Below, in pieces: positions 11,243-64,000 of a DNA stretch of 64,000 nt (positions are counted from its first letter, which is position 1; every line of letters starts with the position of its first letter). Under the pieces are notes generated by a model. It saw only the letters and a program-made list of their open reading frames with translations, did not search any database and was not told the origin of the DNA. This DNA comes from a virus. The position numbers and the translations under genes were made by a program. The DNA lies in the IMG/VR virus record IMGVR_UViG_3300023179_000001, positions 39,922 through 103,921 of that record; one strand, given 5' to 3'.

Positions 11243-11281
11243 CAATTACATAGTATCACAATGTAACACACTGCATCAAGG
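11243..11281 (-). promoter_or_regulatory. Promoter with inverted-repeat operator, copy A
   Basis: On the minus strand: TTGATG, an 18-nt spacer, then TACTAT, with the near-palindrome CAGTGT-gtt-ACATTG between them. It is 35/39 identical in the same register to 12819-12857. The palindrome covers the spacer, where a repressor would block RNA polymerase. The small ribbon-helix-helix gene directly beside it (11288-11431) is the obvious candidate regulator, by inference. Confidence 0.6.
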
Positions 11282-11287
11282 GATCAA

Positions 11288-11431
11288 TTATGAAGATTGT
11301 GAAGGTTTTTCTGCCTGAAGGAGAATGTGCCTGACATAGTTGGAAAGAGACCTATTCTGCTTATCCGCTTGTTTCTTGAGCTTTGCTAGAAGCTCTTTCT
11401 CTAGCCGCACATGAATGATTGTTGTTTTCAT
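11288..11431 (-). CDS. Ribbon-helix-helix (Arc/CopG-like) transcriptional regulator, 47 aa
   Basis: Starts MKTTIIHVRLEKELLAKLKK and ends ILLQAEKPSQSS. An N-terminal beta strand with alternating residues (TTIIHVRL), a first helix (EKELLAKLKKQADKQN), then RSLSNYVRHILLQ as second helix: the Arc/CopG/MetJ fold at the usual minimal length. AAGAGGTCGTT precedes ATG 11431. RHH dimers bind short inverted repeats with the beta ribbon. It lies immediately upstream of operator-like element 11243-11281 and between the two copies of that element, so it may repress both promoters. Overlooked easily because of its size. Confidence 0.75.
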   Translation of the reverse strand: MKTTIIHVRLEKELLAKLKKQADKQNRSLSNYVRHILLQAEKPSQSS

Positions 11432-11440
11432 AACGACCTC

Positions 11441-12061
11441 TTAATGGTCAATCTCTTTGACCACTTTTTCTGTGTGTACTTTTTGAGCAATAGCCCTAGC
11501 TTCACTTTGCTTTTTATATCGCATTAAACGCTCGCTAATCTTATCTTCAGTGAATTGGGTGGGGTACTCATCGCCAAGCTTTTCCACGACCTCATACCAG
11601 TCTGGAGTACCACTCTCTATTGAACTACTAGAACCTTCAACCGCCAAGATGACCTCTGCGGTGTTGGCATCAACTAATCGCAAAAATTGAACGCACTGTT
11701 TGGATAATCGCTGAGTGAATAGGCTTTGCTTCAGGTAGCAATCAACATGAGGGACTAAAATGGCTCCGACCCCGTATAACTGTCCCCATTGAGCCCATTT
11801 CTGTTCATCCGAGAATCGGTCTGAATCATTGCGATGCTCCCTGTCCTGCTCCTTTTTAATCGCTGAAAAGCCATCTTTGCGGTCGATCACTGTCCACTTA
11901 TCAGCTTTAACCAGAGCAGTTTGGAGCCTAACGTGTTGTGCCTCATCGACCTTATCGGGATCGACCATCAATCTCATGTTTTTATCGCTATAACGGGTTC
12001 TCACTTCGGTCGAACTACAAGCTGAGAGCAAAACCAAGCCTATTACAATAAAAGTGTTCAT
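11441..12061 (-). CDS. Lipoprotein with CsgG/LpoB-like features
   Basis: 206 residues from ATG 12061, which has a near-perfect AAGGAGGTGCAT ribosome site. Signal peptide MNTFIVIGLVLLSAC with lipobox LSAC; Cys 15 should be lipidated. The mature part reads like the CsgG/LpoB fold: KADKWTVIDRKDGFSAIKKE, then QLYGVGAILVPHVDCY and FLRLVDANTAEVILAVEGSS. CsgG relatives are outer-membrane lipoproteins of secretion or wall-synthesis systems; this match is by pattern and uncertain. In a phage it could act at the infected cell envelope. The gene is followed closely by the RHH gene. Confidence 0.65.
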   Translation of the reverse strand: MNTFIVIGLVLLSACSSTEVRTRYSDKNMRLMVDPDKVDEAQHVRLQTALVKADKWTVIDRKDGFSAIKKEQDREHRNDSDRFSDEQKWAQWGQLYGVGAILVPHVDCYLKQSLFTQRLSKQCVQFLRLVDANTAEVILAVEGSSSSIESGTPDWYEVVEKLGDEYPTQFTEDKISERLMRYKKQSEARAIAQKVHTEKVVKEIDH

Positions 12062-12074
12062 ATGCACCTCCTTA

Positions 12075-12494
12075 TCACCAAGAAGCACGATAATAATAAT
12101 CCATCCGTTTATCGAGGCTGGATATTATCTCGATAGTTTTCCTTAAATCTTCAAAGTAATACTCATCTACGTCCGTTGAACCGAAAAAAAAGCCCTCTGT
12201 GGGCGGCAGTAGGGAAGCGTCTTTGGTTTTTAGTACCTTTTTACAAAGCGATTGTAGTTCAAGCAGCTTGCTATAAGGCACATAATACTCTTTGCAATCG
12301 TCATTACCGTCTTGGACTTGATCGACGAACCATTTGTGAATCATATTCGCCTTTCTCCAATAGCCCACCTCTTCAACAATGTATGAAACTTTTTCGACAT
12401 CTACAGATTTTGATTTTTGTAGCAGCAATTTTAGCTCTAAATTGTCCGAATACTTAACATAGGTTCTTTTGTGTAAATACATATCCAATCCCAT
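12075..12494 (-). CDS. Conserved phage hypothetical protein (MGLDMYLxKRTYVK family)
   Basis: 139 residues starting MGLDMYLHKRTYVK, with EEVGYWRKANMIHKWFV in the middle and GFFFGSTDVDEYYFEDL near the C-terminus. I recall this triad from a widespread phage/plasmid family of unknown function. Aromatic and His residues are conserved-looking, suggesting a small enzyme or binding fold. AGGAGGTCGTT precedes ATG 12494. It overlaps the leader of the lipoprotein gene. Confidence 0.7.
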   Translation of the reverse strand: MGLDMYLHKRTYVKYSDNLELKLLLQKSKSVDVEKVSYIVEEVGYWRKANMIHKWFVDQVQDGNDDCKEYYVPYSKLLELQSLCKKVLKTKDASLLPPTEGFFFGSTDVDEYYFEDLRKTIEIISSLDKRMDYYYRASW

Positions 12495-12503
12495 AACGAC
12501 CTC

Positions 12504-12806
12504 CTATAAGTGTGTATAAAGACCTGTAACCTCAGTAAAAATGATTTGAAGATCCTCTGCGTAAACGTCTTCAAACTTCTTAATTTCCTTTAAAATCCCT
12601 TTAGCGCAGTAGATGAAGGTCATTTCGTACAAGTCCTTCCCGTAGTTGTATTCGATTTTAATTAGGTTAATCCTGGTTGAATTGCGGCCTATTTTAAAGA
12701 ACAGTCCCTTTTCTGAGCCCACAAAGTTTTTGGCTCCCGTCATCGCTATAAACCGATTACCGCCTAGTTGGGAAAGGATTGTTTTGGCTATTGTTAAGTC
12801 ACTCAT
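12504..12806 (-). CDS. Conserved phage hypothetical protein (GGNRFIAMTGAKNF family)
   Basis: 100 residues from ATG 12806 with GGAGGAAAT just upstream. Contains TILSQLGGNRFIAMTGAKNF (about 7-26) and ends VTGLYTHL, both typical of a common phage/mobile-element family of unknown function. It is the first gene after promoter copy B and heads the short operon continuing to the lipoprotein and RHH genes, so it is likely part of an RHH-autoregulated unit. Confidence 0.7.
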   Translation of the reverse strand: MSDLTIAKTILSQLGGNRFIAMTGAKNFVGSEKGLFFKIGRNSTRINLIKIEYNYGKDLYEMTFIYCAKGILKEIKKFEDVYAEDLQIIFTEVTGLYTHL

Positions 12807-12818
12807 ATTTCCTCCATC

Positions 12819-12857
12819 CAATTACATACTAACACAATGTAACACATTGCGTCAAGG
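12819..12857 (-). promoter_or_regulatory. Promoter with perfect inverted-repeat operator, copy B
   Basis: Minus strand: TTGACG, 18 nt, TAGTAT, then TGTAATTGG and the ribosome site. The spacer contains the perfect palindrome CAATGT-gtt-ACATTG. The 39-nt block is 35/39 identical to 11243-11281 and lies at the same kind of distance from a gene start. This repeat of both promoter and operator argues for shared control of two operons. Confidence 0.65.
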
Positions 12858-30953: not shown

Positions 30954-31808
30954 TTACTCTTCTTTTTCCAAGACCGAGTAGGCAGCTTCGACACCTATCT
31001 TGTCACAACCAAAAGGCATAAGAGCGTAACCCTTATCTCCCCATTTAGCTCCCCAAGAGTTTCTCATGATCCAATTTCCTTTGTTATCCCAACCAACGAG
31101 ATTGACCATGTGATTGACCCCTTTGTAACCACAACCCTTCATCACTCCACCCTTGTAACCATCCCATCTGGAGTTGGCTCCTACCGCAACACTCAAATAC
31201 CCGTAGTGAAGAATTGCTGCTTTCATTTCTTCTACCGTAGGAGATTTGTTGGAGCTACCAAGGTTATAAAAAGAAATCGGTTTAATTGCCCTTGGTTTGC
31301 CTTCTCTTCTGCATTTCATGGTACGAGCTTCGTATGGATAATCCGATTGAAGGGCGAGCCCATATTTCGTTAAATAGGGGCCAGCGAAGTTACCTCCGTT
31401 ACACCCATACCAATCTTTATCGCAATCAACTATTTCTTGTTCGCTAAATTGCAATTCTTTTTTATCAAAGATTACACCCAACGATTCTAGATTCGCCACG
31501 GTCGAGAAACTCCAACAAGAACCGCAGGAGCCCTGATTTTTAACTGGAAGATCTACCCCGATGGCACGCCAATCAAAGCTTTCAGGGAGATTTCTAACTT
31601 GAGGAGCAGGTTTGAAAGGTGCTCCATCAACTAATCCGTGACCATTATGCGTTTTAATATAACCCGTTGCGTATTTTGTTGGGGAATTGATTGAAGTAAT
31701 ATCGATGTACTCATACTCCGTGTACTCTGCTGGGGCAGTGGATCTTCCGCACCCCAGTAGAGTTAAATGCAATACAATACTCATAGCTAAAAAAAGATAG
31801 TTCTTCAT
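30954..31808 (-). CDS. Papain-family (C1) cysteine protease lipoprotein
   Basis: 284 residues from ATG 31808, with GGAGGCAAAA in front. Lipoprotein signal MKNYLFLAMSIVLHLTLLGC (Cys 20 lipidated). Catalytic set intact: oxyanion Gln 92 and Cys 98 in VKNQGSCGSCWSFSTVANLE, His 233 in VNHMVNLVGW, Asn 250 in RNSWGAKWGDKG. Further papain hallmarks are the SEQEIVDCD and GCNGG motifs. The stretch before the catalytic domain is short (about 55 residues), so no full cathepsin propeptide. It would act at the periplasmic or outer-membrane face. It is monocistronic, with its own terminator. Confidence 0.9.
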   Translation of the reverse strand: MKNYLFLAMSIVLHLTLLGCGRSTAPAEYTEYEYIDITSINSPTKYATGYIKTHNGHGLVDGAPFKPAPQVRNLPESFDWRAIGVDLPVKNQGSCGSCWSFSTVANLESLGVIFDKKELQFSEQEIVDCDKDWYGCNGGNFAGPYLTKYGLALQSDYPYEARTMKCRREGKPRAIKPISFYNLGSSNKSPTVEEMKAAILHYGYLSVAVGANSRWDGYKGGVMKGCGYKGVNHMVNLVGWDNKGNWIMRNSWGAKWGDKGYALMPFGCDKIGVEAAYSVLEKEE

Positions 31809-32077
31809 TTTTGCCTCCGTGTTCACCTCCTTTCGGCATTCCGTCGCATCACCCCTAACGCAGCTACCCATAAGTAATACGGTACAACCTTTGTTGCACC
31901 GAGCCTTGAGTCCTTCCCCAAAAACCCCTAAAACACTTTCCAATCTAAAAACAGATTTAAAGGGCAGAGGCTTTCATTGAAGGTTTGCACCCCAAGCCCT
32001 TTTAAAAAACAGGAGAGATTAGCCGTAAAAAGCCCTCTCAAGAAACTTTCAAATAACGGGGTTCGTTTAGATTCAAA
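31809..32077 (-). other. Intergenic region at transcription polarity switch
   Basis: No convincing gene. Minus-strand leader of the protease carries two ribosome-site-like boxes (AAAGGAGG and GGAGG). A 7-bp inverted repeat AAAGGGC/GCCCTTT (31959-31965, 31996-32002) could form a hairpin. Genes to the left run leftward, genes to the right run rightward, so promoters for both are expected and an origin is possible; no iterons seen. Confidence 0.4.
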
Positions 32078-62450: not shown

Positions 62451-64000
62451 TTAGTGAGCTAACCACATTGACAACGTGCTGTCCCAAATTAATTGGACAG
62501 ATTCGTAAGCAACCCCAAGGTTAAAACCACTGGCACCGTCAATGGTTTGCCCTGCGTTTGCAACGATGTTGATTGAACCCGCTCCAGATCCGTCTTTAAT
62601 AACGTGGAACTGACCGTCAACTGGACTAGCAGGCATAGTATAGACCACACCCGAGGCAGTTGCGATTTGATACGGCTCGCTGTTTGCGATTGTATAACTA
62701 GAGCTCTTTCTTACTTTTCGATAGGAAAGACCTCGTCCTAATACAGCGTGGTCGGTTTGTAACGCAAGTGGCAGCCTCTCAGTAGCATCACTTGAATTCC
62801 TTCGTAAATCAAACTTGATTTGAGTTTGATTGTTTGAAGAAGGATCGGTAAAGTTCGCAAAAACCATTTTTGCGTACCCTCGGCTCTCGCCAGCATCGGC
62901 TGGTCTTGATAGCGACCAGTCCACTGGTACTTCAGCGTTTTTCAGGAAATTTACTTTGTCGCCAAAGATTTCCATTACATCCACTCTTGAAGTTCCACCA
63001 GCAGCGGTAGCTTGGAATACCATCTTAGTTCCAGCAGCACCAGCACTGTGCTGTTCAACTGCGTTAGCTACGATTCTTGCCCGACCGCTGTTGTATGTGC
63101 TACCGTCCCATGCTCGGAATCCCAACTGCCCAACCATATCCCCGCTTGCTAAGTAGTCTGGAGTTCCAGCATTATCTCTTGATTTCTCAAGAGCAAGTAC
63201 AGGGCCGTTTCCAGCGGTATTGCTACTTAATCTTACCGAGCTTACTGGAGAAACTCCGGTGGCTCCATTTACCAAGAATGCTCTTTCAGAAGAAGACGAT
63301 GAGACAAAGCTTACTGAAGCTTTTCCATACATCTCAACTGACTTGTCACTGTTTATTTGCACCGCAGTGGCAAGCGTTGTTGAGCCGCTTGGTGTTACTT
63401 GGAATTGCATATAACCAGGAGCCGAAGTGTTAGTAAATGCATCGCTAGCTTTTACGATGATTTGCGCTGCATCTCGGAAAACTCCAGTATCTCCCATGCC
63501 GCCCCATGTGAAGCGACCAATAGAGTCGCCCGTTTGAACAGCAGAAGGACTTGCAAGGGTCCCTCTTGATTTTCTAAAAGAAAACCGATGCTGTGCGGAT
63601 GCGGTTTCTGAATATCTAACTCCAGCGATTCTTGGATCTGTGGTTGCGTCTGAATCTGCCACAACCCATAGGCTGTTATTATTATTTCCAGACATTTGGT
63701 CAACACTACCACCGCCAATTTGCAATCCGTAAGCAAGATATTCCTTATTTGGTCTATTTACTCCGACTGCACCGATATTCTTAGATGCGTCTGTTCCAAA
63801 AAGTAAATGCTCATTAATAGCTACGTTTTCAAGGTTGCTTAGAGATCTTGCAGCTTTGCCAGAAATCGTTGTCTCAAGACCTGTGATATCTGCTTCTGCG
63901 ACATCCATTCGACCTTCAAGACCTGTGATATCTGCTTCTGCGACATCCATTCGACCTTCAAGACCTGTGATATCTGCTTCTGCGACATCCATTCGACCTT
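62451..64000 (-). CDS. Tail fibre with N-terminal 14-residue coiled-coil repeats (5' end cut)
   Basis: 516 residues visible; the apparent start at 63992 is just a Met inside a repeat, so the gene continues beyond the window. The N-terminal part visible repeats MDVAEADITGLEGR (two heptads) in tandem, a trimeric coiled-coil shaft. The rest is a beta-rich head domain (about 60-510) with FRKSRGTL, SPSAVQTGDSIGRFTWGGMG and ALEKSRDNAGTPDYLASGDM, ending with a beta-structured tip SINIVANAGQTIDG. Probably a side fibre or baseplate tip. Confidence 0.75.
   Translation of the reverse strand, partial: GRMDVAEADITGLEGRMDVAEADITGLEGRMDVAEADITGLETTISGKAARSLSNLENVAINEHLLFGTDASKNIGAVGVNRPNKEYLAYGLQIGGGSVDQMSGNNNNSLWVVADSDATTDPRIAGVRYSETASAQHRFSFRKSRGTLASPSAVQTGDSIGRFTWGGMGDTGVFRDAAQIIVKASDAFTNTSAPGYMQFQVTPSGSTTLATAVQINSDKSVEMYGKASVSFVSSSSSERAFLVNGATGVSPVSSVRLSSNTAGNGPVLALEKSRDNAGTPDYLASGDMVGQLGFRAWDGSTYNSGRARIVANAVEQHSAGAAGTKMVFQATAAGGTSRVDVMEIFGDKVNFLKNAEVPVDWSLSRPADAGESRGYAKMVFANFTDPSSNNQTQIKFDLRRNSSDATERLPLALQTDHAVLGRGLSYRKVRKSSSYTIANSEPYQIATASGVVYTMPASPVDGQFHVIKDGSGAGSINIVANAGQTIDGASGFNLGVAYESVQLIWDSTLSMWLAH
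63874..63999 (-). repeat. Three exact 42-bp tandem repeats inside fibre gene
   Basis: Units 63874-63915, 63916-63957 and 63958-63999 are identical and each encodes 14 residues; more copies probably lie outside. In-frame unit size allows length changes without disrupting the gene. Confidence 0.9.

Follow-up and report, generated by a model that had tools for sequence, protein, structure and literature searches.

Two copies of a candidate promoter-operator and a small ribbon-helix-helix gene in the accessory island of an uncultured tailed phage

Arc of P22-type phages is the product of an autorepressing ribbon-helix-helix (RHH) gene, and its operator lies within the Pant promoter. The E. coli RHH protein RelB also autoregulates; it reads [A/T]TGT[A/C]A hexads that lie on one face of the DNA and overlap the -10 element (PMC2812701). 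The Omega repressor of plasmid pSM19035 is an RHH protein that controls several promoters via short repeated boxes in both direct and inverted orientation (reviewed in PMC4803016). Besides these regulators, T4-like phages have their own promoter/stem-loop cassettes, the PeSLs, which are repeated promoter blocks within a gene-swapping island (cited in PMC4503421). Here we compare these systems with a locus in which two copies of a promoter-like block flank a gene for a very small RHH protein.

The window, that is the whole stretch of 64,000 nucleotides analysed here, comprises bases 39922-103921 of an uncultured viral contig of 103,921 bases. Judging by its terminase, baseplate- and tail-like and replication genes, the source is a tailed phage. 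The two contig ends share one 42-nt coding tandem repeat (window 62451-63992, and L005 1-140 at the contig start), which suggests a circular or terminally repetitive contig with its cut inside this repeat. All real-looking genes between ~4.8 and 29 kb are transcribed leftwards; further on, the minus strand at 30954-31943 encodes a papain-like cysteine protease that carries a lipoprotein-type signal.

A sequence-only reading had reported two 39-nt blocks matching at 35 positions and a 47-residue RHH gene between them. The block coordinates, the match count and the RHH gene were all confirmed (Table 1). Both blocks read on the minus strand, like the genes around them, and the leftward order is P2, A100, B139, lipoprotein, RHH, P1, D80. 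Thus the RHH gene is the fourth and last gene behind P2, its start is ~1.4 kb downstream of P2, and three other genes also lie between the block copies. The genes behind both blocks have good Shine-Dalgarno sequences.

Table 1. Features of the P1/P2 locus in window coordinates
Feature	Position	Strand	Remarks
Terminator-like site, strong	15194-15163	-	upstream of island genes
Stem-loop	12860-12884	-	11-bp stem, no U-tract; just upstream of P2; z -3.3
P2, upstream block copy CCTTGACGCAATGTGTTACATTGTGTTAGTATGTAATTG	12819-12857	-	35/39 match to P1; 12 nt upstream of A100 start codon (12806)
P2 -35-like TTGACG	12855-12850	-	18-nt spacer to -10
P2 -10-like TAGTAT	12831-12826	-	TG-extended; after 18-nt spacer
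P2 dyad CAATGT-gtt-ACATTG	12835-12849	-	perfect; in spacer
P2 dyad TTACAT-N9-ATGTAA	12822-12842	-	perfect; covers spacer, -10 and slightly past
P2 10-bp tandem repeat CAATGTGTTA / CATTGTGTTA	12830-12849	-	9/10
A100	12504-12806	-	first gene behind P2; phrog_9437 family, no known function, widespread in phages
B139	12075-12494	-	second gene behind P2; weak match to phrog_7971, no known function, widespread in phages
Lipoprotein, 206 aa	11441-12061	-	clear lipobox LSAC-SS, read from sequence
RHH, 47 aa	11288-11431	-	fourth and last gene behind P2; passes the Pfam cut-off for NikA-like RHH; matches Arc-like PHROGs
P1, downstream block copy CCTTGATGCAGTGTGTTACATTGTGATACTATGTAATTG	11243-11281	-	35/39 match to P2; begins 6 nt past RHH stop; 22 nt upstream of D80 (11220)
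P1 -35-like TTGATG	11279-11274	-	18-nt spacer to -10
P1 -10-like TACTAT	11255-11250	-	after 18-nt spacer; TG before -10
P1 dyad CAGTGT-gtt-ACATTG	11259-11273	-	5/6 pairs, one arm altered
P1 dyad TTACAT-N9-ATGTAA	11246-11266	-	perfect
P1 10-bp tandem repeat CAGTGTGTTA / CATTGTGATA	11254-11273	-	8/10
D80, 80 aa	10978-11220	-	P1-proximal gene; no family; no homology to A100
Further small genes behind P1	10001-10981	-	75 aa, 79 aa, DUF3846 167 aa

We observed that the likeness of P1 and P2 is limited to the stretch from the -35-like hexamer through about +1 and drops steeply on either side. Three of the four differences fall outside the -35/-10 core, and most spacer bases are identical. When the whole contig was scanned with 10-base seeds for 39-mers paired in direct orientation, P1 and P2 were the sole pair matching at 35 or more of 39 positions outside coding tandem repeats, the latter being located near the contig ends. 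A third copy was not found in the phage, the best other 39-mer reaching only 25/39; a degenerate 23-mer built from the blocks matched twice in the window compared to no match in 100 shuffles. The possibility that P1 and P2 head duplicated genes was rejected, as the D80 and A100 products are not alike. Since these proteins differ, the repeated unit is the regulatory block alone, without its gene, and the confinement of the likeness to -35 through about +1 ahead of unrelated genes fits the block itself being kept.

The hexamer scores, 9/12 for P2 (TTGACG-18-TAGTAT) and 8/12 for P1 (TTGATG-18-TACTAT), are fair and no better than background. Matches to the promoter consensus numbered 22 in the region, compared to 26.5 expected from shuffles. 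Because such matches are no commoner than in shuffles, the promoter reading rests on the repeat, on the distance of 12-22 nt to the start codons and on the good Shine-Dalgarno sequences.

Between the -35-like and -10-like hexamers lie two kinds of dyad and a tandem repeat. The palindrome CAATGT-gtt-ACATTG, which the sequence-only reading had placed in both blocks, is exact in P2, while in P1 one arm reads CAGTGT. The tandem repeat follows a pattern common to both copies, CAnTGTGTTA/CATTGTGWTA. Read onward, the blocks show TGT three times at exactly 10-bp steps; the tandem repeats are candidate same-face half-sites for an RHH protein. Random 39-mers equalled the P2 repeat in 0.34% of cases and the P1 repeat in 3.2%. 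A dyad with 6-bp arms appeared in ~7% of random 39-mers and is weak evidence by itself. The repeat and the dyad were chosen after inspection and the two copies are not independent; therefore, the figures rank the candidate operators and prove none. The palindrome first proposed is imperfect in one copy, and the TTACAT-N9-ATGTAA dyad and the 10-bp tandem repeat are preferable as operator candidates.

Features of this kind do not name their binder, and the RHH protein is paired with the sites by proximity alone. The blocks could accordingly be the target of some other regulator, from the host or from the phage itself, acting as repressor or activator and, for example, timing a group of phage genes. 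With no further block copy in the phage, a general phage timing factor is unlikely. We regard binding by another protein as unlikely.

Membership of the small protein in the RHH (MetJ/Arc) superfamily was found by profile over the strand-helix-helix region. Its best Pfam match was PF21983, a NikA-like RHH family of plasmid mobilisation proteins, at 27.2 bits against a cut-off of 27. Nine further Pfam families, mostly of RHH type, matched below the cut-off, and the matches to antitoxin RHH families were weak. PHROG families named Arc-like repressor also matched. Relatives of the protein were not found in the viral contigs, the genome contigs or the phage and plasmid collections, and Arc was not listed at E <= 1 in a phmmer search of PDB sequences. 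An AlphaFold2 monomer model made from the single sequence, without an alignment, was one long helix (pTM 0.57) and uninformative. Within the contig this is the sole RHH_1 or NikA-like RHH gene detected, and it is bracketed by the only two block copies.

The NikA-like and antitoxin matches bear on a further explanation, in which the blocks are a non-promoter repeat, such as a recombination or replication site, and the RHH protein is a relative of relaxosome-accessory proteins or antitoxins. Against it, both copies immediately precede a gene in its own orientation, with a Shine-Dalgarno sequence before its start codon, the tested neighbours of the RHH gene had no relaxase, toxin or integrase match, and an Rfam search gave no match. 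We consider this explanation very improbable. The narrower proposal of a type II antitoxin was rejected: besides the lack of a toxin-family match among the neighbours, only ~6 residues follow the RHH-matched region.

The locus resembles the P22 Arc system in that a very small phage RHH protein is encoded in the unit that it would control and would have its operator inside a putative promoter. It differs in that the protein had no sequence match to Arc in the solved-structure set, the P2 unit contains no ant gene, and there are two blocks 1.6 kb apart whose operators are candidates by sequence alone. With RelB and relO (PMC2812701) it shares an RHH protein and, as candidates here, TGT-containing 6-bp half-sites on one DNA face overlapping the -10, and ATGTAA and its complement TTACAT fit the RelB hexad, by analogy only. 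However, the locus has no toxin gene, the protein has no C-terminal toxin-binding part, and the candidate half-sites are 10 bp apart compared to the 12-bp half-operators of relO. As in the Omega system, an RHH protein goes together with repeated boxes, and P1 contains one heptad, TATCACA, close to NATCACN; that plasmid system, however, uses contiguous 7-bp boxes, whereas here there is just one near-match heptad. P1, P2 and the RHH gene most likely make up a simple feedback circuit, and phages and plasmids already provide known examples of this kind.

We favour, with about even confidence for and against, an Arc- or RelB-like RHH feedback repressor that acts on two promoters, P1 and P2. The RHH gene belongs to the putative P2 unit by strand and close spacing, and no terminator-like site was listed on the minus strand from P2 to P1, the P2-to-RHH interval included. 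P1 and P2 carry features usual in RHH operators, namely a 10-bp same-face repeat and a perfect TTACAT-N9-ATGTAA. Points against this explanation are the broken palindrome of P1 and the ~1.4 kb that separate P2 from the RHH start. We infer promoter activity, co-transcription, RHH binding, repression and timing as follows. P1 and P2 would be two copies of one phage promoter-operator, from which host RNA polymerase would read A100-B139-lipoprotein-RHH (P2) and the D80 group (P1), both leftwards. As the last product of the P2 unit, the RHH protein would accumulate, and dimers of it would occupy neighbouring copies of the repeated TGT-containing half-sites, which extend over the -35/-10 spacer and the -10. 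Such binding would shut off P2 by negative feedback and P1 by co-repression.

The sequence-only reading had described an autoregulated switch controlling two small-gene operons, an interpretation that the present analysis supports in part. The position of the RHH gene at the end of the P2 unit, with no intervening minus-strand terminator-like site, fits an autoregulator. The word switch is too strong, as there is no second regulator, divergent promoter or mutual repression; the arrangement suggests at most negative feedback with co-repression of a second unit.

Searches with the terminase led to phages of matching gene order, including G001 (108 kb) and G005 (a 110-kb contig); identity was 58-65% in the terminase and 52-58% in PolIII. 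A terminase scan of genome contigs found no host. In one relative the alignment of the terminase query was split by ~1 kb in frame (L163 1168-3648 and 3645-6332); this insert is intein-like (HNG-type and FCSNGFISHN ends), and the neighbouring methyltransferase gene has similar in-frame inserts.

The blocks lie in an accessory island (~9.1-15.2 kb) flanked by a ParB-like gene on one side and the small terminase subunit on the other. Other genes fill this interval in G001 and G005, so its contents differ in the three related phages. The blocks, the RHH gene and the remaining cassette were not found in the relatives of the same gene order: the RHH_1 and NikA-like profiles detected an RHH gene in the window phage only, and a repeated non-coding block like P1/P2 was not seen in the islands of the relatives. 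Homologs of D80 were not found in viral contigs, nor were those of the lipoprotein in viral contigs and phages; the lipoprotein had a weak, sub-threshold CsgG match and its structure model was uninformative. Upstream of 155 matches to A100 and B139 homologs, no block-like sequence rose above background. An exact-motif scan of viral contigs gave two matches in unrelated settings, which were taken as chance. The RHH protein and the blocks are thus both present in this phage and neither was detected elsewhere, a pattern that agrees with a linked pair but is a single case.

Loose motif matches in G001 came to about the number expected by chance (~9 by our estimate). In the G001 island an antirepressor-like gene (L174 8681-9325) is preceded by TACATAGCGATGTAACACA, which loosely resembles TACATAGTATCACAATGTAACACA on the plus strand of P1 and may be chance; the near-match before this gene (L174 8643-8656) was indistinguishable from chance and was rejected. 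We also noted a C-terminal motif, F-x-x-x-L-x-x-[L/I]-stop, on many small proteins of G005 and G001 that are otherwise unlike one another, for example RDFESALKNL, KDFEDALKNL and SFMEDLKKI, far above a rough chance estimate (L184 14451-14726, 14733-15050, 15047-15451, 15448-15795, 15805-16281, 16278-16580 and 16577-16903; L174 7185-7454, 7461-7757 and 9322-9552; L176 1053-1292 and 4675-4947). The motif looks like a tag that accessory proteins have in common; no convincing case was seen in the window phage.

The setting in an island that is replaced at the same position in two relatives agrees with another explanation, namely that the blocks are duplicated early promoters for host RNA polymerase, without a dedicated repressor, spread by recombination as modules of a gene-swapping island, and that the RHH protein acts elsewhere. 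P1 and P2 are direct repeats 1576 bp apart that bound a four-gene cassette, which could therefore be lost or gained by recombination between the repeats. A stem-loop, possibly an attenuator or other binding site, precedes P2, and the PeSLs of T4-like phages offer a precedent for promoter/stem-loop cassettes (cited in PMC4503421). However, PeSL cassette membership was rejected, as there are just two copies and one stem-loop, which lacks a U-tract; PeSLs are also not known to include a regulator gene. The spacer is moreover conserved beyond the need of RNA polymerase, which a recent duplication would also explain. We regard unregulated duplicated promoters as possible but doubtful.

Returning to the RHH feedback repressor, a bolder version of it seems to us improbable. 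It would have an RHH protein without detectable close relatives control two promoters via a new half-site array, three TGT elements 10 bp apart, as a self-contained cassette that delivers a host-surface lipoprotein and is mobile by recombination between its operator-promoters.

If the RHH protein binds both blocks, the locus would be a minimal feedback circuit in an uncultured group of 104-110 kb phages. Its natural pair of operators, which differ at four positions, would then lend itself to testing how so small an RHH protein recognises DNA. Such a circuit would also show an accessory island of a phage bringing along a regulator of its own. The logic itself is well known.
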